Shown here: positions 51,925 through 64,000 of the stretch, one piece after another
How positions within the stretch are numbered: position 1 is the stretch's first letter
Layout: each line of letters starts with the position of its first letter
Assembly (NCBI GenBank): GCA_018242685.1
Contig: JAFEBM010000010.1
Span: 1 to 64,000, forward strand
From: Nitrospira sp.
GTDB lineage: Bacteria; Nitrospirota; Nitrospiria; Nitrospirales; Nitrospiraceae
Length of the DNA stretch: 64,000 nt
Direction: 5' to 3'
Notes under the pieces: model-generated
Seen by the model: only the letters and a program-made list of their open reading frames with translations
What the model was told of the DNA's origin: nothing
The model's database searches: none
Translations under genes and position numbers: made by a program

Positions 51925-52278
51925 CTACCTATCGCGCAACTGAGCTCGGTATTTCGACAATGGGTTGCCCGCTGCTTCGACGGTCCTGATCAATGTGTCC
52001 ACATTCGTCTTCTGTGGATCAAACGTCACTGACGCGCTGGCATCTGAATAATCAGGGAACCAGATCCACTTCTTCCCCGTGCTGAGCCCAACCTCGCTGA
52101 CACCGGACACCTTGGCCAGCGCGGCTTTGACATCCTTGACGCATCCTCCGCAAGTCATGCCTTCGATCTGCAGTGTGACGGTCTGCTGGCTTTGGCCCGC
52201 CGCGACAAGGCTCTGGAATCCGGTCAAGCTCAAGGTCACAACACCGATCACGATCATCGTATGAACGAATCTCCACAT
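51925..52278 (-). CDS. merP: Periplasmic mercury-binding protein MerP-like
   Basis: 117 residues. Signal peptide, then a heavy-metal-associated domain with the metal motif GMTCGGC (about residues 40-46) and the ferredoxin-like pattern KDVKAALAKVSGVSEVGLS. Binds Hg(II) and hands it to MerT. Between merT and the AhpD-like gene. Confidence 0.88.
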   Translation of the reverse strand: MWRFVHTMIVIGVVTLSLTGFQSLVAAGQSQQTVTLQIEGMTCGGCVKDVKAALAKVSGVSEVGLSTGKKWIWFPDYSDASASVTFDPQKTNVDTLIRTVEAAGNPLSKYRAQLRDR

Positions 52279-52372
52279 GGTCGTTTCCTCCTTTCCATCG
52301 CCTCGCTTCCCCCTCGAAAGACAGGCCGGCTGGAAATGACGCTACCATCTCACATCTCTCGCTTCACGGAAA

Positions 52373-52783
52373 TCATATGCCCAACCAATAAGGCGCCAGA
52401 ACCAGTGCCAGCGCCAGCGACGCCATGATCCAAAGCCATGTCCGGTTCCTACCTCTCTGATTTTCTTGAGCACACACTTCTCCCGGCACGCATCGTGTTG
52501 GCTCCGGCTTCCTATAAGCAAAATAAAAGCCGATACCCAACAGGAGTATCGTCAAGCCGATGAAGGCTGGTCGATACGGCAAGAGTCCCTTCAAGACCCC
52601 AGCCGTACCGGCCAAGAATCCGGTAGCCCCGACTCCCACACCAAGCGCCGCAAAGATCAGCGGCCCAATGCAGCAGACAGAAGCCAGCAACGCTGCGCTC
52701 AGTCCACCAACCGAGAGAATCGTCACGGGTTTGCTCGGCGGTTTGGATCTGGAAGTGGGTTCTCGATACAAAGGCATGGCCAT
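52373..52783 (-). CDS. merT: Mercuric transport protein MerT
   Basis: 136 residues, three hydrophobic helices. The first helix carries the vicinal Cys pair in ASVCCIGPL, and a loop pair in PTRCVPGEVCAQE resembles the cytoplasmic Cys of MerT. Imports Hg(II) across the inner membrane. Its ATG overlaps the merR stop (TAATG). No merA reductase lies nearby, which is odd for a functional operon. Confidence 0.88.
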   Translation of the reverse strand: MAMPLYREPTSRSKPPSKPVTILSVGGLSAALLASVCCIGPLIFAALGVGVGATGFLAGTAGVLKGLLPYRPAFIGLTILLLGIGFYFAYRKPEPTRCVPGEVCAQENQRGRNRTWLWIMASLALALVLAPYWLGI

Positions 52784-53203
52784 TACCTGCTCGGCGTCGT
52801 ATCCTTATCCAATCTCCTGAGAATCGGACAACGATCGGTCGGTTGCCCTGCCCGGCAAGTGCGGATCAAGCTTTTGAGCGCCCGCGAAAGCGCCAGTAAA
52901 CCCCGTGCCTTTGCTTCCACCTGTTTGAGCTTGGCTTGCGCCTTCACCTGAATGGTTCCGCACCGCGCGACTGAGCTGACCCGGAGATTCAGTAACTCGT
53001 TGACCTCACGAAGAGTAAACCCCAACACCTGCGCATTCTTGATGAAGCGCAGTCGCCTCAACGCATCGTCACCATACACTCGATATCCAGACGTTTTACG
53101 GTCTGTGGGCTGGAGCAGGTTACGTCGCTCATAAGTAGCGGACAGTTTGCACATTCACTCCCGCCATCTTGGCAAGCTGTCCGATCGTTAGTCCCGATGC
53201 CAT
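52783..53203 (-). pseudogene. merR: MerR mercury regulator, frameshifted
   Basis: Conceptual 139-residue MerR. The first 24 codons from ATG 53203 (ASGLTIGQLAKMAGVNVQTVRY) run into a stop after one inserted T in TACTTATGAG; with it removed the protein continues YERRNLLQPTDRKTSGYRVYGDDALRRLRFIKNAQVLGFTLREV. The three mercury ligands Cys (ARCGT, RTCRAG and DRCPI) remain. 421 bases from start to stop, one more than a multiple of three. Confidence 0.85.
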
Positions 53204-54228: not shown

Positions 54229-55230
54229 ATGCCAAGTCCGATTGAGCACGTGGTAATAATCGTAAAAGAGAATCACACGTTCGATAACTACTTTGGAACA
54301 TTCCCTTCGGCCGAAGGTGTGAAACTAACACCGGCATCAAACCCGCCGCCCAATGATCCACATCATGATCACGAAACCTGGATGCGCCGGGCCAGTAATC
54401 CACGATATCACGTTCAATACGGGGAAAAAGATATCCCCGCCTATTTTGCGTACGCCCGTCAATTCACGTTGTGCGACCACTATTTCTCAGAGGTGGCAGG
54501 GCCCAGCACGCCGAACCATCTTATGTTGATTTGCGGGGATGCACCGATCATTAACAACCCCTCTCGCCAGTACCACCCTCGCCCCGGAGATGCCTATCGA
54601 CTTGCATCGTTGCCGGAGCAACTGGAAGAGGCGGGTTTGTCATGGGGGAATTACGGCGGCTATGCGTTTCATTTCATCGCCGGCCTCGCGGGCCATCACA
54701 GGAACCATACGCGAGACTTGTTTCAGCACCATGCAACGAAGGGCAAGCTCCCTTCCGTTTCGTGGGTCTATGCAGACGGCCGCCCGTCGCTGACCGAACA
54801 TCCGACCCAAAATATCACGGATGGAATGCAATGGACGGTCGACCAGATCAACGCCATTGTCGCAGGAGGCTTGTGGGATCGCACCGCTGTTTTTATCACA
54901 TGGGATGATTGGGGTGGATGGTTCGATCACGTCGAGCCGCCTCTAGTCGAAAAGTGGGATAGCTCAAGGGCTCAGCGGCCGCCGGACGCACACCCTGAAT
55001 TCAACGGCCAGCAGTTTCGCTACGGCTCTCGGGTCCCCTGCCTTGCCCTCAGTCCCTATGCAAAGCGCGGGCATGTCTGTTCACAAACTAATTCCCATGT
55101 GAGCCTCGTGAAATTCTGCCAGACGACCTTCGGCTTGCCCTCGCTCAACGAGCGAGACGGCGGGTCGAACGGTATGACTGACTGTTTCGATTTTGCGCAA
55201 AACCCGCTCCCTCCGCCTCAGGTGGAATAA
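54229..55230 (+). CDS. Phosphoesterase/phospholipase C-family protein (PF04185-like)
   Basis: 333 residues. Starts IEHVVIIVKENHTFDNYFG, the metal-site opening of the alkaline-phosphatase-like phosphoesterase family; further conserved parts are EVAGPSTPNHLMLICGDA, AVFITWDDWGGWFDHVEPP and RVPCLALSPYAKRGHV. Metal ligands (Glu14, Asp and His in these motifs) look intact. Members hydrolyse phospholipids or phosphate esters and are usually exported; no signal peptide is present here. First gene of the island. Confidence 0.86.
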   Translation: MPSPIEHVVIIVKENHTFDNYFGTFPSAEGVKLTPASNPPPNDPHHDHETWMRRASNPRYHVQYGEKDIPAYFAYARQFTLCDHYFSEVAGPSTPNHLMLICGDAPIINNPSRQYHPRPGDAYRLASLPEQLEEAGLSWGNYGGYAFHFIAGLAGHHRNHTRDLFQHHATKGKLPSVSWVYADGRPSLTEHPTQNITDGMQWTVDQINAIVAGGLWDRTAVFITWDDWGGWFDHVEPPLVEKWDSSRAQRPPDAHPEFNGQQFRYGSRVPCLALSPYAKRGHVCSQTNSHVSLVKFCQTTFGLPSLNERDGGSNGMTDCFDFAQNPLPPPQVE

Positions 55231-55364: not shown

Positions 55365-56948
55365 ATGCCTACAAATCACAATCGCGTCACAGTTCGCGGC
55401 AGCGAGCGCAGCCCCCATCACGGAGCGCATGTCGATGGTCCTGTTCCAAACGACGAGCGATTTGAAGTGACTGTTCGCATTCGTCGAAAGACCTCTCTCC
55501 AGAGCCTGGCCGACGGATTTCATACCGACAAACTGCCCATGAACCGTCGCTACCTCACACGTGAACAGTACGCCTCGTCGCACGGCGCCGACTCGGCGGA
55601 TATGGCGAAGGTCGAAGCGTTCGCTCAAGCGCACAACCTCGTCGTCGTCGAAAAGAGCACGGCCCGGCGCAGTATTTTTCTCTCGGGCACCGCTGCCGAC
55701 TTCGCGAGAGCGTTCGGAACAACTATTGAACATTACGAACATGACGGGGGCACTTACCGTGGTCGGGTCGGCCCTCTGACGGTGCCGGCTGAGTTGGACG
55801 GAATCGTGGAAGGGGTGTTCGGGATCGACGACCGACCTGTGGCAAAACCGCATTTTCAACGGCGCAAAATGACCGGCGGTATGCAGCCCCGCGCGACGGG
55901 AGAATCATTTACCCCCGTCGAACTGGCAACACTCTATAATTTCCCGACCGACTTGGACGGCTCCGGGCAATGTATCGCCATCATCGAACTCGGCGGCGGC
56001 TATCGCAAGGCCGACATCAAGGCGTACTTTCAAAAGCTCGGTCGGCCCGCGCCAAAAGTCAAAACGGTTCGTGTCGATGGCGGCAAGAACCATCCCTCTA
56101 ACGCCGACAGCGCCGACGGGGAGGTCATGTTGGACATCGAAGTAGCGGCCGCTGTGGCACCGAAGGCGTTGATCGCGGTTTACTTTGCGCCGAACACCGA
56201 CAAAGGATTCCTCGACGCCGTCACCAAGGCGATCCATGACACGACCCACAAGCCTTCGGTGATTTCGATCAGTTGGGGCGGCGCGGAGGACAACTGGACC
56301 GAGCAGGCGATGACGTCGTTTGACCAGGCATTCCAGACAGCAGGTGCGCTCGGCGTGACGGTCTGTTGCGCGGCGGGGGATAACGGATCTGCTGACGGCG
56401 AGAAGGATGGGAAGGCACATGTAGATTTTCCGGCATCCAGCCCGTTTGCGTTGGGCTGCGGGGGCACCAAACTGACCGCTTCCGGAAACACGATAACCAA
56501 TGAAGTCGTCTGGAATGAATCAGCCGATAGCGCCACTGGTGGAGGTGTGAGCGATTTCTTTCCTGTGCCGCAATATCAGAACACCGTCGGCATCCCGCCA
56601 TCGACAAACCCCGGCAGACACAAGGGCCGTGGCGTCCCTGATGTCGCGGGCGATGCAGACCCTGCCACCGGCTATGTGGTCCGTGTCGACGGAGAGGAGC
56701 TTGTAATCGGCGGAACGAGCGCGGTCGCTCCCCTATGGGCCGGCTTGATCGCGCTGATGAACCAGAAGCTCAGTCATCCAGTAGGGTTTCTGAACCCGCT
56801 CATCTACCAACCGCTCGCCGGCAAGGGCTCCTTCCGAGATATCTCGTCGGGCGACAATGGCGCCTACTCCGCCAAACAGGGCTGGGATGCATGCACGGGA
56901 TGGGGCACGCCTAACGGAGCAAAGCTCCTCCAGGCGCTCGGAGGATAA
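55365..56948 (+). CDS. S53 (sedolisin/kumamolisin-like) serine-carboxyl peptidase
   Basis: 527 residues. Kumamolisin-like pro-domain (about 1-170, with the AASHGADSADMAKVEAFAQAHNL pattern) and a catalytic domain. Catalytic residues: Glu253 and Asp257 in DGEVMLDIEV, Asp339 in AAGDNGSADG and Ser452 in GGTSAVAPLWAGL. The C-terminal calcium site is DISSGDNGAY...DACTGWG. Active at acid pH in this family. No signal peptide, as in kumamolisin. A distal membrane/secretion route is unknown. Confidence 0.94.
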   Translation: MPTNHNRVTVRGSERSPHHGAHVDGPVPNDERFEVTVRIRRKTSLQSLADGFHTDKLPMNRRYLTREQYASSHGADSADMAKVEAFAQAHNLVVVEKSTARRSIFLSGTAADFARAFGTTIEHYEHDGGTYRGRVGPLTVPAELDGIVEGVFGIDDRPVAKPHFQRRKMTGGMQPRATGESFTPVELATLYNFPTDLDGSGQCIAIIELGGGYRKADIKAYFQKLGRPAPKVKTVRVDGGKNHPSNADSADGEVMLDIEVAAAVAPKALIAVYFAPNTDKGFLDAVTKAIHDTTHKPSVISISWGGAEDNWTEQAMTSFDQAFQTAGALGVTVCCAAGDNGSADGEKDGKAHVDFPASSPFALGCGGTKLTASGNTITNEVVWNESADSATGGGVSDFFPVPQYQNTVGIPPSTNPGRHKGRGVPDVAGDADPATGYVVRVDGEELVIGGTSAVAPLWAGLIALMNQKLSHPVGFLNPLIYQPLAGKGSFRDISSGDNGAYSAKQGWDACTGWGTPNGAKLLQALGG

Positions 56949-57122
56949 TCTGAAGAACAGGGCTTAGCCAAGCATTTGACCCTGCTAAGCGCGGCGAGAG
57001 CACAGAATTAATCGACCCTTCTCGCCGCGCAAGGCCGGTGCGTTTCCCTCGAATTCGACGTCTATTGAACATTGCTGCGCGGAGAGTGCCCTATCAATAT
57101 CCAGCTCAAGAGGAGGTCCAAG

Positions 57123-59345
57123 ATGGCAAAGGACAAGAAACAAGTGCTGACACCGGGCGGAATGCGACCCGAATCCGTCGTTCATCATGTCCAACCCGGT
57201 CAGATCGTAAAGGTGACAGAGATTGCCGTCACGAGCCGCGACGAACCAGCCGGGATGCGGCCGACATCTCAGGTTCAGGATGTCGTCTCTGGTCCAATGG
57301 CGATGGGCACCGGCACGACGGGCGAGGACAGCGACGAGCCTCCAGGAGTACGGCCAGCGTCCACCGTTCAAGATGCCACATCCAACCCAATGGCGCCGGG
57401 CGGCGGCATGGTCGGGACAACCGGGGATGAGCCGGCAGGAATGCGCCCCCAGTCCCTTGTTTCTCCTGCCGCACCCGGCCTCAGGACCGCAGCCGTCAGT
57501 CCATCAACAGACGAGGCCGAGCATCAGCTGACGCCCGGCGGATACCGGCACAGATCGCTGGTGCATCACATCGAGCCGGGGCACCACCTGGACTTGGCGA
57601 GCGGAAATATAAGGAAGATGCACAGCTCGGGACTTGAGGTGCTCGATTTCGGCCCGCTGCGCATTCGACCGGGGACTGAGCCGCTGATGCCTGCTAACGT
57701 CGCGCGGCACCCGAGCAGGCAGCCGGCCCTAGGGTCAGGATGGATCACCTATGCCTACTGGACCAATGACACCGGCCATCCGGTTTCGCGGTTTGCCACC
57801 ACATGGGTGGTCCCGCCCGCCCCGGCGACAGACCACGGCCAAACGATCTTCCTGTTCAACGGTATCCAGAACTCCACCATGATTTACCAGCCGGTGCTGC
57901 AGTGGGGTCCTTCAGCTGCGGGCGGAGGCAGCTACTGGGCGGTGGCGAGCTGGTACGTGGACGGTCAAGGCGGCGTGGCGTTCCATTCCACCCTGGTCAG
58001 CGTGAATCCCGGTGATGTGCTGGTCGGCGTGATGAGGCAGACGGGCCAATCAGGCAGCCAGTTCAGCTACGCCTGCGAATTCGTGGGCATCGCCAACGCA
58101 AGTCTGCCAATCAGCAACGTAGAGGAGTTGACATGGAACATCGAGACTCTGGAAGCGTACGGGATTCAGCAATGCTCCGACTATCCGAACACGAATTTCA
58201 CGGCGTTCGTAGGGATCGACCTGCAGACCAGCGCGGGCAATCCGTCGATCACTTGGACGCCGGTGAATAGTGTGACCGATTGCGGGCAAAACACACACGT
58301 GGTGAGCAACGCGAACGCGGGCGGAGAAGTCGATATTTATTATCTCGCGCGGGTGGCAGCCACGGCATCGACCGCTTCAATCAACAGCGACGGGCGCCTC
58401 GAAACGTTCGTGCTCGCCATGAACGGTTCGGTGTGGAACATCTGGCAGACGGTTCCGCATGCAGGCCCGTGGAGTCGCATTAACGATCTCGGGGGCATCG
58501 TCAAAGGGCCTGTGTGTCAGGCGCTGAACTCCGATGGGCGGTTGGAGATTTTCGGGATCGGGACGGACAATGCGGCGTACAACAACTGGCAGACGGCGCC
58601 CCACGCCGGACCTTGGAGCGGCTGGAACCGGCTCGGCGGCTGGGTTGCACAGCTCGCAATCGCGTGCAACAGCGACGGCCGGCTGGAACTGTTCGGGATC
58701 GGCGGTGACGGCGCACTCTACAATATGTGGCAGACCGCGCCCCACTCGGGACCATGGAGCGGCTGGAATCGTCTCGGCGGCGTGGTCAAGCAGATTTGCG
58801 TCTCGCTCAACAGCGATGGCCGCCTCGAAGTGTTCGGCATCGGCTCAGACAATGCTCTCTACAACATCTGGCAAACGGCGCCGCACGCGGGACCCTGGAG
58901 CGGGTGGAACCGGCTCGGCGGCTGGGTCTCGCAAATCGCGTCAACGATCAATTCCGACGGACGTCTGGAAGTGTTCGGCATCGGCGGCGACGGCGCGCTC
59001 TACAATATCTGGCAGACGGTGCCGCACGCGGGACCCTGGAGCGGGTGGAACCGGCTCGGCGGCTGGGTGAAGCAGATCGTCCCCACACGCAACAGCGACG
59101 GACGTCTGGAAGTGTTCGGCATCGGCGGCGACAGCGCACTCTATAATATCTGGCAGACAGTGCCGCACGCGGGACCCTGGAGCGGGTGGAACCGGCTCGG
59201 CGGCTGGGTAAGTCAGATTTCGGCGGCGCTGAACTCCGACGGGCGGTTGGAGGTGTTCGGCATCGGGTCGGACAGCGACCTCTACAACATGTGGCAGACG
59301 GTACCCCATGCGGGTCCATGGAGCGGCTGGAATAAGCTCACATAG
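57123..59345 (+). CDS. Five-repeat N terminus, eqolisin-like domain and seven-bladed DUF346 propeller
   Basis: 740 residues from ATG 57123 (GAGGAGG before it). (1) Residues about 8-170: five spaced repeats of the type PxGxRPxSxVxxxxPG. (2) About 200-415: a beta domain with TTWVVPPAPATDHGQTIF, Gln260 in PVLQWG, and Trp338-Glu341-Glu344 in LTWNIETLEAYG, resembling the glutamic peptidase (G1, eqolisin) patterns ILQxG and EWIVEDFE. (3) About 418-740: seven repeats of about 46 residues with SDGRLEVFGIG...WQT.PHAGPWSGWNRLGG, a DUF346/PLL-lectin-type propeller. No signal peptide. Confidence 0.82.
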   Translation: MAKDKKQVLTPGGMRPESVVHHVQPGQIVKVTEIAVTSRDEPAGMRPTSQVQDVVSGPMAMGTGTTGEDSDEPPGVRPASTVQDATSNPMAPGGGMVGTTGDEPAGMRPQSLVSPAAPGLRTAAVSPSTDEAEHQLTPGGYRHRSLVHHIEPGHHLDLASGNIRKMHSSGLEVLDFGPLRIRPGTEPLMPANVARHPSRQPALGSGWITYAYWTNDTGHPVSRFATTWVVPPAPATDHGQTIFLFNGIQNSTMIYQPVLQWGPSAAGGGSYWAVASWYVDGQGGVAFHSTLVSVNPGDVLVGVMRQTGQSGSQFSYACEFVGIANASLPISNVEELTWNIETLEAYGIQQCSDYPNTNFTAFVGIDLQTSAGNPSITWTPVNSVTDCGQNTHVVSNANAGGEVDIYYLARVAATASTASINSDGRLETFVLAMNGSVWNIWQTVPHAGPWSRINDLGGIVKGPVCQALNSDGRLEIFGIGTDNAAYNNWQTAPHAGPWSGWNRLGGWVAQLAIACNSDGRLELFGIGGDGALYNMWQTAPHSGPWSGWNRLGGVVKQICVSLNSDGRLEVFGIGSDNALYNIWQTAPHAGPWSGWNRLGGWVSQIASTINSDGRLEVFGIGGDGALYNIWQTVPHAGPWSGWNRLGGWVKQIVPTRNSDGRLEVFGIGGDSALYNIWQTVPHAGPWSGWNRLGGWVSQISAALNSDGRLEVFGIGSDSDLYNMWQTVPHAGPWSGWNKLT

Positions 59346-59464: not shown

Positions 59465-62400
59465 ATGGCACTCACAACGACCGGCCTCACGAATGGCGGA
59501 ACGACCACCCACTATCAATTCCAATACGATGATTCTCTTGCTGGAGCCGGAGGGCCGGAACCGGCGAGGACAAATGCCATGATTGCCGCGTGTGAGAACG
59601 ACTTCAATCTCATGTCCGGCTGGTTCGGCAATATCGCTTTGACTGTATCCACTCCCATCGCGGTTAACGTCGTACCAGGCCCCTATGCCAGCGCCGGTTG
59701 GGGTCCTCCGATTACGCTGACGCCGGGTAACGCATCTAATGCCATCTTGTGCCGATATTTGCTGGTATCCGAGGTGACGGAAATGTTCATGCTCGCCCAG
59801 AACAGAGGCTGGTTTGCCCCTGACGGCAGCAATGAAGGAAGCGCAGGAGAGGGACTTTCCCGATTCCTTGCCTCCCAGTTCCTCGTATCCATCGGTCAAC
59901 CACCTGCCATGCCGGGTTTTGGTTTGGCCAACAGCTGGATGAATAGCCCGAGACAGGATTTCGTCAATCACATAGATACGGGCGATCATGGGATAGACGC
60001 AAAGACCGGTTGCGCTATTCTTTTTATCTACTACCTCTTCACCCAACTTGGCTTCACGATTAATCAGATCGTCGCCGCAGCCGCCTCGGAATTGGCTGGC
60101 GTTTATGCAAACGTCACCGGTGATGGAAGCGATCCCTTTCCCTTTTTCAAGCAACTACTCGACACGGCATACCCTGGCACAACGACCATTGGCGGAGCCA
60201 ATCCTGACAATCCTTTCCCGCTGGGCATTCTCTCGTTCTGGGTGGATAAGAGCACGTTCGGTCGAGATGAAGTGACGGACGTTATCAGTTCGGCGAGCAA
60301 CGGCACATTCCCGAATGCCTACTGGCTTGTACTGGAAGGTTTCAACAAAAACAAGTTCAATAGCCTTGGTATAATCACGCCGACGTTCTTCGGTCCGTTT
60401 GCCAACCTCCCCGGCATCGGGATCTCGGCCGACGGTTCCGGCGTTAGTTTCGAGACGTCCGACACTAAAATTCCGCAGCGTATCCGGTTCCCTTTTGACA
60501 TCAGTTTTACGAACACCACATTAGGTTCATTCCCGGCCCCAGGCAGCGCCCCCCTTCAGGAACCGCTCACCGCAGTGATCAATGTGGGCGGGGCTCCACT
60601 GTTGGGCGCATCGGCACTCACCGAGTTCGAGTTGATTTCCGGCTCCGATCCCTACTACACGAATATAGACACCACGCAGAACAACGTCTTCTGGCTGAGC
60701 CAAGATTTGCGGGTATTCACGGCATCGCCAAGCCTGAACAATACACCCGTTCCGGGCGCGCCCGCCTTTTCTTCCGATAGTTTCTCCGGCGCATACAACT
60801 ACATCAAGGGTCTGCTTGCATTTCTCAACAACCCTGCGAACCATTTTACCGACGGCACCAACGATCCGTTCGCTTCGGGCGTCATCCCCGACCAGGCGGG
60901 ATCCCTCACGGCCGATTCCTCCGTGTTTCGATTCACGCTTGCCGGTTTCCCGCCTCAATTCCACAGCAACTACAATTTCGCCGTCGCGCGCGTCCGCTTG
61001 CGCGGTACCGCAGGCCCGGCCGGCCAGGCTCAGCATGTCAAGGTCTTTTTCCGGCTCTGGTCGACACAGACAGCGGATACCGGTTTCGATCCGGGTTCCA
61101 CCTACCTGAGTCATCAGGATGGCGGGCATCCGCACTGGCCGCTGCCCGCACCCGACGCCCATACAATTCCGTTTTTCGCCACGGGCAATAGCCCGAATCT
61201 CAGCGATCCGAATAATCCCGAATACGGAATCAATGGGATCAACAACCAGACCATTGCGATCGTCTCAGGCGATAAGGGCTATGCATACTTCGGGTGCTTC
61301 CTGAATGTATATGACCCCGGGAATGTAGTGAATGGTGCGCAAGTACAGGCATTGTTGGCGGGCACGCATCATTGTCTCGTCGCCGAAATCGCCTATGATG
61401 ATGCACCTATCATCAATGCCAATGGCATCGTAGCTGGACCTGAAAGATCCGATAAACTCGCGCAACGTAATTTACAGTTGACCTTTTCCGATAATCCGGG
61501 TCCGGCGGACACCCACCGCATACCACAAACCTTCGACTTGCGGCCTGCTCCGGCCATCGCATCCCGTGCCGGAGCCTTGCTTGATTATCCCGACGAGCTC
61601 ATGATTGATTGGGGCCGCACTCCAGCGGGAGCCGTCGCCCACATCTACTGGCCGCAGATCAATGCCGCTAAAGTTTTAAGTTTGGCTGGTCGTTTGTACG
61701 GCACGCATCTCCTTTCCGCCAGCGACAGCAATACAATCGATTGCCAAGTGACGAACGGTGTGAGCTATATTCCAATACCGCCGGGGAATATCGAGAACAT
61801 CGCCGGACTGTTGACAGTGGACTTGCCTCAAACAGTGTCGATCGGGCAAGAGTTCAACATTATCGTGCGGCGCATTTCGACGCGGCGGTTCAAACAGGAT
61901 CCTATACCCGCCGGACGCGAGCCGGCGGTCAATACACTACTTGAACTCTCGCTGGACAAACGCGGTACTGAATCCGGGCCGATCGAGGAGCCCAAAGAAC
62001 CTCGCCCCGTTCCACCGATGCGAAACTGGCGCTACGTGACCGGTACCTTCCAAGTGAAAATTCCCGTCACGACTCCGCAAATCATGCTACGTCCAGATGA
62101 AGACGCGCTAGCCGTGATGAAGTGGCGTCTACAATCCATGTCGCCGACCAACCGCTGGCATCTCGTGCTCAAGCGCTATATCGAATATGTATCGGCTCGG
62201 ATCGCGGGGCTTGGCGGCAACCCCAACGCAATTCCCCCGTCGCCCAATGGGGCTCCCGGGCCCACCGGCGTCAAGGACGTGGTCGTGCATACTGGGAAGG
62301 TGGTCGAGATTATCTATGATTGTTTCGGTCGCTTCGAAGCGCTTGTATTGAATGAATGCGGCGTACTGCATACATTCCAGTCACGAGAATGCGAGATTGA

Positions 62401-62500
62401 GAAAATCGCCTTGCGGGCTTGTCGAGACTGTTTACTGCTGTCAGTTTACGTTGAAGAGAACAATCAGCAGCGGATTCGGAGGTTGGCGATCAAATGCTGA
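59465..62500 (+). CDS. Large unknown protein (1011 aa)
   Basis: Not recognised. 1011 residues, start ATG with GAGAGGGA upstream. N-terminal part (about 1-300) has a helical core (LLVSEVTEMFMLAQNRG, GEGLSRFLASQFL, DAKTGCAILFIYYLFTQLGFTINQIVAAA), a large beta-rich middle (300-830), a proline-rich linker (EPKEPRPVPPMRNW) and a C-terminal domain with VVEIIYDCFGRFEALVLNECGVLHTF and several Cys. The helical N-terminal part looks like the metallopeptidase-like folds, but HExxH is absent. No signal peptide. Downstream 250 bp has no gene. Confidence 0.75.
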   Translation: MALTTTGLTNGGTTTHYQFQYDDSLAGAGGPEPARTNAMIAACENDFNLMSGWFGNIALTVSTPIAVNVVPGPYASAGWGPPITLTPGNASNAILCRYLLVSEVTEMFMLAQNRGWFAPDGSNEGSAGEGLSRFLASQFLVSIGQPPAMPGFGLANSWMNSPRQDFVNHIDTGDHGIDAKTGCAILFIYYLFTQLGFTINQIVAAAASELAGVYANVTGDGSDPFPFFKQLLDTAYPGTTTIGGANPDNPFPLGILSFWVDKSTFGRDEVTDVISSASNGTFPNAYWLVLEGFNKNKFNSLGIITPTFFGPFANLPGIGISADGSGVSFETSDTKIPQRIRFPFDISFTNTTLGSFPAPGSAPLQEPLTAVINVGGAPLLGASALTEFELISGSDPYYTNIDTTQNNVFWLSQDLRVFTASPSLNNTPVPGAPAFSSDSFSGAYNYIKGLLAFLNNPANHFTDGTNDPFASGVIPDQAGSLTADSSVFRFTLAGFPPQFHSNYNFAVARVRLRGTAGPAGQAQHVKVFFRLWSTQTADTGFDPGSTYLSHQDGGHPHWPLPAPDAHTIPFFATGNSPNLSDPNNPEYGINGINNQTIAIVSGDKGYAYFGCFLNVYDPGNVVNGAQVQALLAGTHHCLVAEIAYDDAPIINANGIVAGPERSDKLAQRNLQLTFSDNPGPADTHRIPQTFDLRPAPAIASRAGALLDYPDELMIDWGRTPAGAVAHIYWPQINAAKVLSLAGRLYGTHLLSASDSNTIDCQVTNGVSYIPIPPGNIENIAGLLTVDLPQTVSIGQEFNIIVRRISTRRFKQDPIPAGREPAVNTLLELSLDKRGTESGPIEEPKEPRPVPPMRNWRYVTGTFQVKIPVTTPQIMLRPDEDALAVMKWRLQSMSPTNRWHLVLKRYIEYVSARIAGLGGNPNAIPPSPNGAPGPTGVKDVVVHTGKVVEIIYDCFGRFEALVLNECGVLHTFQSRECEIEKIALRACRDCLLLSVYVEENNQQRIRRLAIKC

Positions 62501-62752: not shown

Positions 62753-64000
62753 CTATGGTCTCGTTTCCATTACAGGCCGTGAGGCGACCGTTCGGCAATC
62801 GGCTTCACGTCGTTGAACGATCCGCTGTTCCATCCATCGATACAAGACCGGCAAAACCACCAGCGTCAACGCTGTGGACGAAATCAATCCACCGATGACG
62901 ACAGTCGCCAATGGTCTTTGCACTTCGGAACCAGGCCCGCTTGCGAAGAGTAACGGCGTGAGTCCAAGCGCCGCCACGGTCGCAGTCATCAGCACAGGAC
63001 GCAACCGCAAGACCATGCCAGTGAGCACTGCTTCGTCCAACGGCATCCCCTGCTCCCGCAGCTGGGTGATGTAGGCAATTTTCACTACCCCATTGAGCAC
63101 CGCCACACCGAACAAGGCAATGAAGCCGACGGACGCCGGAACTGAAAGATACAGCCCACTCAACAACAACGCCAGCAAGCCGCCGACCATGGCGAACGGA
63201 ATCGCGAGGAGAATGAGCGCCGCGTGCCGCAGATTTCCAAACGTGAAATAGAGCAACAAAAAGATCAGGCCGATGACCAGCGGTACGACCACGGCTAGCC
63301 GCGCCATGGCCTGCTGTTGATTTTCGAATTGACCACCCCACGTGACATAATAGCCCGGCGGCAGCTGCACCAGACGTGCGACTCCTGTTTGAGCCTCTTC
63401 TACGGCGCCGACCAGATCGCGTCCGACCACATTCGCCTCGATCACGATCCGGCGACTCGCATGCTCACGACTGATTTGCGCCGGTCCTTCCACAATTCGA
63501 ATGTCGGCCAGCTCGCGAAGAGGAATTCGTGAGCCGTCCGGGGCTGTCACCCACAAGGCCGCAATGGTCTCCACATCGGTGCGCCGATCGTCGGGAAACC
63601 GCACCATGATCGGAAAACGCCACTGTCCTTCGAACACCTCTCCGGCAGCAATGCCGACACCGACGGCTTCAATCACTTCCGTGATCTCCGCGACGTTGAT
63701 CCCATATCGCGCAATCCTGGCACGGTCGATGTCGATCTTCAGATAATACAGGCCCGACACCTGCTCGACTCGTAGATCGGAAATGCCGCGCACCTGCCGC
63801 AGCGCCCGCGAGATTTCGTCCGCCTTCACCCGCAAGGTCTCAAGGTCATCGCCGAACAGTTTAATGGCGACCTGAGATCGAACTCCCGAGACTAGTTCAT
63901 CAACGCGCATGGCAATCGGCTGTGAAAGCCCGAACAAAATACCGGGCACTTGCTCCAGCCGCAGGCGGACCTGCTCCTCGATCTCAGTTTTGGACTGCGT
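62753..64000 (-). CDS. CzcA/CusA-type heavy-metal RND pump, 5' end beyond window
   Basis: The last 415 or so residues of a heavy-metal efflux RND pump; the frame is open to the window edge (TQSKTEIEEQVRLRLEQVPGILFG before the first internal Met). Seen: porter domain (SQVAIKLFGDDLETLRVKADEI), QINREHASRRI-like region, and the final helices FIALFGVAVLNGVVKIAYI, RPVLMTATVAALGLTPLLFA and GGLISSTALTLVVLPVLYRWMEQR. Exports divalent metals with a fusion protein and outer-membrane channel not in view. Confidence 0.9.
   Translation of the reverse strand, partial: TQSKTEIEEQVRLRLEQVPGILFGLSQPIAMRVDELVSGVRSQVAIKLFGDDLETLRVKADEISRALRQVRGISDLRVEQVSGLYYLKIDIDRARIARYGINVAEITEVIEAVGVGIAAGEVFEGQWRFPIMVRFPDDRRTDVETIAALWVTAPDGSRIPLRELADIRIVEGPAQISREHASRRIVIEANVVGRDLVGAVEEAQTGVARLVQLPPGYYVTWGGQFENQQQAMARLAVVVPLVIGLIFLLLYFTFGNLRHAALILLAIPFAMVGGLLALLLSGLYLSVPASVGFIALFGVAVLNGVVKIAYITQLREQGMPLDEAVLTGMVLRLRPVLMTATVAALGLTPLLFASGPGSEVQRPLATVVIGGLISSTALTLVVLPVLYRWMEQRIVQRREADCRTVASRPVMETRP

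Follow-up and report, generated by a model that had tools for sequence, protein, structure and literature searches.

Glutamic peptidases cut proteins with glutamate and glutamine and form a rarely seen catalytic class. In scytalidoglutamic peptidase (SGP), residue W67 positions Q53, and E69 is strictly conserved throughout family G1 (PMC6154417). Members of G1 cleave proteins under acid conditions and are insensitive to pepstatin. The Q-E spacing of known G1 proteins, derived from Table 1 of PMC3009609, ranges from 81 to 95 residues. In neprosin, E188 sits at the position of SGP Q53 (PMC9343461). The PLL lectins, for their part, have no recognised signal peptides, yet PLL2 and PLL3 are found outside the cell (PMC12203525).

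Here we analyse a window of 64,000 nucleotides of Nitrospira sp. DNA (contig JAFEBM010000010.1), in which one gene appears to join elements of both kinds. We consider its product to be a lectin-targeted glutamic endopeptidase, with a probability of roughly 0.68. The open frame, placed at 57123-59345 by an earlier, sequence-only reading, runs on the forward strand from an ATG at 57123 and encodes 740 residues. AGGAGG lies just 5′ of this start codon, and the alternative start, TTG at 57072, was judged less likely. No signal peptide is evident on the protein, its N-terminus being judged by eye. Three full-length relatives (L011, L010 and L009) share the architecture at 65-75% identity to the window protein. 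The features of the gene are as follows.

57123..59345, + strand: whole gene, 740 residues; N-terminal motif region, glutamic-peptidase-like domain and seven-bladed propeller (open frame).
57123..57722, + strand: N-terminal region, residues 1-200, degenerate TPGGxRPxSxVHHVxPG repeats (motif listing, N-termini of relatives; present once in the genome).
57528..57722, + strand: last motif copy and linker, candidate propeptide (conserved in L005 and L009-L018).
57723..58358, + strand: predicted glutamic-peptidase-like beta-sandwich domain, residues 201-412 (AlphaFold2 model, PDB matches 2ifr/2ifw, hhalign to G1).
57888..57890, + strand: codon of Gln256 in IYQPVL, proposed catalytic Gln and counterpart of SGP Q53 (invariant in all family rows).
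57900..57902, + strand: codon of Gln260, the candidate of the sequence-only reading (not kept in distant relatives).
57951..57953, + strand: codon of Trp277, counterpart of SGP W67 (invariant in the 14-row alignment).
58152..58154, + strand: codon of Glu344, proposed catalytic Glu and counterpart of SGP E136 (invariant).
58380..59342, + strand: seven-bladed beta-propeller of the PLL lectin type, residues 420-740 (seven 47-residue repeats, phmmer to PLL).

The AlphaFold2 model of residues 201-412, built from a 14-row alignment, comprises 212 residues, is all-beta and has moderate confidence (pLDDT 76, pTM 0.77). Foldseek against the PDB ranked SGP 2ifr first (E 5.3e-7), followed by neprosin and by SGP again; a fold search of BFVD gave weak, generic sandwich matches only. 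With VIA-align, 178 residues of the model superpose on SGP 2ifw at 2.7 Å (Z 17.1, 12% identity). Neprosin follows at Z 16.6, then Bacillus CPAVM1 (15.5), YncM (14.6) and HC7 (13.3). The prediction, with SGP as its best match, agrees with the G1-like fold that had been supposed for this middle domain. By the predicted fold alone G1 and neprosin are not separable, the two being tied within 1 Z.

The window protein has no match to Peptidase_A4 (PF01828) up to E 10, none to Neprosin (PF03080) in Pfam, and none to the NCBIfam glutamic peptidase profiles even at E 10; the domain alone, searched by sequence against Pfam, NCBIfam and the PDB, returned nothing. Distant members tested against Pfam Peptidase_A4 do not match either. 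The same profile gives 128 bits to L021 and 73 to L022, both true Peptidase_A4 members.

A link to G1 is found between profiles. The comparison set, composed of genuine Peptidase_A4 proteins together with SGP and aspergilloglutamic sequences, reproduced Q53, E136 and E69 by count. Aligned by hhalign against this set, all family members together gave E 2e-4, and the window protein with its distant members, set against 16 G1 sequences, gave a probability of 91%, a score of 48.8 and E 9e-7, both E-values applying to a single comparison and not to a database search. As controls, 200 column shuffles reached a score of at most 23.3, and reversed columns 11.4. When close relatives alone are used the alignment is weak, and its register slips by one to three residues. 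Finally, the family HMM picks out known G1 members above shuffled controls; L027 scores 25.8 bits, against 7.3 for the best shuffle. The strictly conserved E69 of G1 has no counterpart in the family, where the residue aligned with it, next after W277-Y278, is V, A, C or the like, and D43 is likewise not kept. Of the G1 kinship proposed earlier, the profile-profile link stands and formal Peptidase_A4 membership does not. By profile and by the missing E69 the domain is outside the formal G1 family; because E69 is absent, it looks like a divergent sister branch of G1 rather than a clean member.

The sequence-only reading had placed the dyad regions at Q260, in VLQWG, and at W338, E341 and E344, in WNIETLEAYG. 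Its numbering is right, the wider contexts being QPVLQWGPS and TWNIETLEAYG, and its choice of residues holds in part. Among 14 aligned relatives, E344 and Q256 (E144 and Q56 of the domain) are invariant and Q260 (Q60) is nearly so; given this conservation, the dyad motifs are not a product of chance. Every hhalign run with distant relatives puts Q256 on Q53 and E344 on E136, at a spacing of 88 residues that lies inside the known G1 range. Glu344 is thereby retained as the candidate catalytic Glu. Gln260 gives way to Gln256, which alone is invariant and sits on Q53. Glu341 is dropped, its position being Q in L015 and L016 and L in L019. From this invariance and from the profile alignment with Q53 and E136, and since Q260 and E341 vary, we propose Q256 and E344 as the dyad. 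A truncated model starting at Met253 compares weakly with aspergilloglutamic peptidase (pLDDT only 60, Z 4.7): the first residue of the model corresponds to residue 23 of the chain, and the catalytic Gln is residue 24 by alignment, so that with a constant offset assumed Q256 lies 2 residues and Q260 6 residues from the catalytic Gln, which leans slightly toward Q256.

N-terminal to the domain, degenerate copies of TPGGxRPxSxVHHVxPG occur at residues ~9, 40, 71, 102 and 136. The last copy and its linker directly precede the domain and are common to nearly all close relatives; across the relatives, the motif TPGGxRxxSxVHHVxPG appears one or more times before the domain. In L019 and L039, two of the distant members and both secreted, a related TPxG...V...pG stretch separates the domain from the signal sequence, and the region thus fits a propeptide. 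It may serve as one, in which case it would keep the enzyme latent.

C-terminal to the domain, SDGRLE motifs at residues 422, 470, 517, 564, 611, 658 and 705 (spacing 48/47/47/47/47/47) mark seven repeats with a mean pairwise identity of 73%. In phmmer searches the propeller matches PLL5 (8q83) at E 5e-128 and PLL2 at 2.8e-127, and PHL was also matched. The NCBIfam profile beta_propeller_lectin finds it at E 7e-30, yet below the profile's cut-off. Repeat count and phmmer bear out the PLL-like propeller of seven SDGRLE repeats described earlier: with seven repeats and sequence homology to PLL, it is, as judged from its sequence, a PLL-type lectin, and would presumably bind glycans, L-fucose or O-methylated sugars being the ligands expected of this lectin type.

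Other readings of the sandwich domain have to be weighed. It could be catalytically dead or non-proteolytic and serve, next to the propeller, as another domain that binds carbohydrate or protein. Many binding proteins contain a concanavalin-like sandwich; with our model, galectins, GH43 accessory domains and glucanases reach Z 9-12, and the loss of D43 and E69 of G1 fits such a role. We nevertheless hold it to be unlikely, as the residues kept invariant across very distant relatives coincide in alignment with those of the G1 dyad and with W67, and as G1 and neprosin exceed glucanases and binding proteins by at least 3 Z. The same comparison bears on a glycoside hydrolase or lyase of concanavalin-like, GH16-like fold. 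The non-peptidase 1,3-1,4-beta-glucanases give Z about 12 or less, and those at 11-12 lend this reading what appeal it has. The protein has no Pfam glycosidase match, however, the glucanase Z lies below that of G1, and the conserved residues fit the G1 dyad, which leaves it the least probable of all the alternatives.

Two further possibilities concern the dyad itself. The domain might be neprosin-like, with Glu/Glu, or belong to another glutamic class instead of Gln/Glu. The near-equal Z of neprosin and SGP would allow this, and the di-glutamate mucinase HC7 matches the model as well. The position aligned with Q53, which is that of E188 in neprosin, nevertheless holds Gln in every family row and never Glu, and this together with the lacking Pfam Neprosin match makes the idea very improbable. 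We give slightly less credence still to a dyad of Gln260 with Glu341 or Glu344. VLQWG does resemble the LQTG of G1, and the 344-260 spacing of 84 is close to the 83 of SGP; but Q260 is replaced by Ala in L003 and L020 and by Gly in L039 and L040, it falls on Q53 in no hhalign run, the spacing from Q256 fits G1 equally, and E341 is not conserved.

We therefore return to a lectin-targeted glutamic endopeptidase as the preferred reading. Residues 201-412 would fold as a G1/neprosin-type beta-sandwich, its cleft carrying Gln256 and Glu344. By analogy with SGP, Glu344 would serve as general base and activate a water molecule bound between it and Gln256, while Gln256 would steady the intermediate, a role carried over from the same enzyme. 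Proteolysis by this putative catalytic domain is likely; it would cut peptide bonds, probably with an acid optimum as in the analogous enzymes. The PLL-type propeller would bind glycans and so keep the enzyme attached to a glycosylated target. We infer that delivery outside the cell takes place without a recognisable signal peptide.

Relatives occur sporadically in soil bacteria. Across the genome collection there are 12 such loci, in Arthrobacter, Sinomonas, Actinoplanes, Cellulomonas, a Micrococcales MAG, Caballeronia, an Acetobacteraceae MAG, a Proteobacteria MAG, two Acidobacteria, a Nitrososphaerales archaeon and Streptomyces. Two viral contigs carry further members; more distant ones come from two Acidobacteria-phylum genomes and from plasmids in Halocatena and Streptomyces clavuligerus. 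Members are rare: besides the seed, each phylum sample contained 0 to 2 of them (three samples, 297-396 genomes). The nearest relative, from the Proteobacteria MAG, is 84% identical, and the GC content of the gene's region, about 62%, is above most of its surroundings (53-59%). As the nearest relatives belong to other phyla and the GC is raised, horizontal acquisition of the gene is likely. The tree of the domain is resolved in only a minor part. Four distant members (L039, L040, L019 and L002) are stand-alone secreted proteins with a Sec- or Tat-like N-terminus, hosted by Acidobacteria-phylum genomes, a Nitrososphaerales archaeon and a haloarchaeal plasmid; where tested, they have no Peptidase_A4 match.

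Relatives keep the N-terminal motif and the domain and differ in the C-terminal part. It is of PLL/DUF346 type in L009, L010, L011 and L016, a tachylectin-like propeller in L012, and made of other repeats in L013, L015 and L017; L014 ends in a short non-repeat tail, and the phage copy L005 in a unique one. C-terminal modules are thus exchanged among relatives. The phage-contig copy (L005:4983-6512, with identical sequence in L004) follows gp80-type fibre genes and an 815-residue gene with endolysin-like matches, and small genes come after it. Its first ~45 residues are identical to part of the Micrococcales MAG protein L018, which suggests a recent transfer between host and phage.

In the window, a kumamolisin-type S53 peptidase (55365-56948; E 1.6e-162 to 1t1e) lies directly upstream; it has a pro-domain and no evident signal peptide. 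Further upstream is a phosphoesterase-family protein by Pfam (54229-55230). Downstream, a 1011-residue protein (59465-62500) is matched by no profile of Pfam, NCBIfam or PHROG. On a Paraburkholderia sprentiae plasmid, a relative that is 31% identical to this protein adjoins three tyrosine recombinases, and Bradyrhizobium plasmids encode relatives of the protein's first 250 residues. No S53, phosphoesterase or 1011-residue relative is found beside the relatives of our gene, whose neighbours differ. As no window neighbour recurs there, the S53 association is local, and a functional pair with the S53 neighbour is not supported. By eye, the hydrolase cluster is bordered at 51925-53154 and 62753-64000 by an RND efflux pump and by genes resembling those of mercury resistance (MerP-, MerT- and MerR-like), an arrangement like that of an acquired island.

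A broader proposal remains tentative, and we would put it at somewhat less than even: the domain may stand for a family of Gln/Glu glutamic peptidases in its own right, so far undescribed and marked by a TPGG propeptide-like motif. Horizontal transfer would have carried it through soil bacteria, archaea and a phage as a catalytic cassette exchanged between many kinds of propeller lectins, giving glycan-aimed proteases. What is new is a glutamic-peptidase-like branch without a name in Pfam or NCBIfam, with Q256/E344 as its likely dyad. Combining the putative catalytic domain with differing lectin-type propellers would be a natural way to aim proteases at glycosylated targets, and the phage-borne copy suggests that phages can be vehicles for glutamic peptidases.

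Among known systems, SGP (scytalidopepsin B, of the MEROPS G1 eqolisins) and Alicyclobacillus pepG1 (PMC3009609) resemble the window domain in predicted fold, in the aligned Gln/Glu pair, in the W67 equivalent and in Q-E spacing. They differ from it in that the domain shares only ~12% identity in structural alignment, has no Peptidase_A4 match and does not keep D43 or E69, and in that the window protein has no evident signal peptide and carries a fused C-terminal propeller. Neprosin, a glutamic prolyl endopeptidase, has the same predicted fold and is a zymogen with an N-terminal pro-domain (PMC9343461), and the same may hold for the window protein; neprosin is a secreted plant enzyme with a Glu/Glu dyad, whereas the window domain has Gln/Glu. 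HC7, a Bacillus cereus mucinase with a CBM5 (mentioned in PMC13003899), shares the general fold and the principle proposed here of a sugar-binding module directing a glutamic peptidase, although dyad and binding module differ. Lastly, the propeller clearly belongs to the family of the Photorhabdus lectins (PLL, PLL2-5 and PHL), which likewise have no recognised signal peptides (PMC12203525); those are stand-alone lectins, whereas here the propeller forms the C-terminal part of a putative peptidase.
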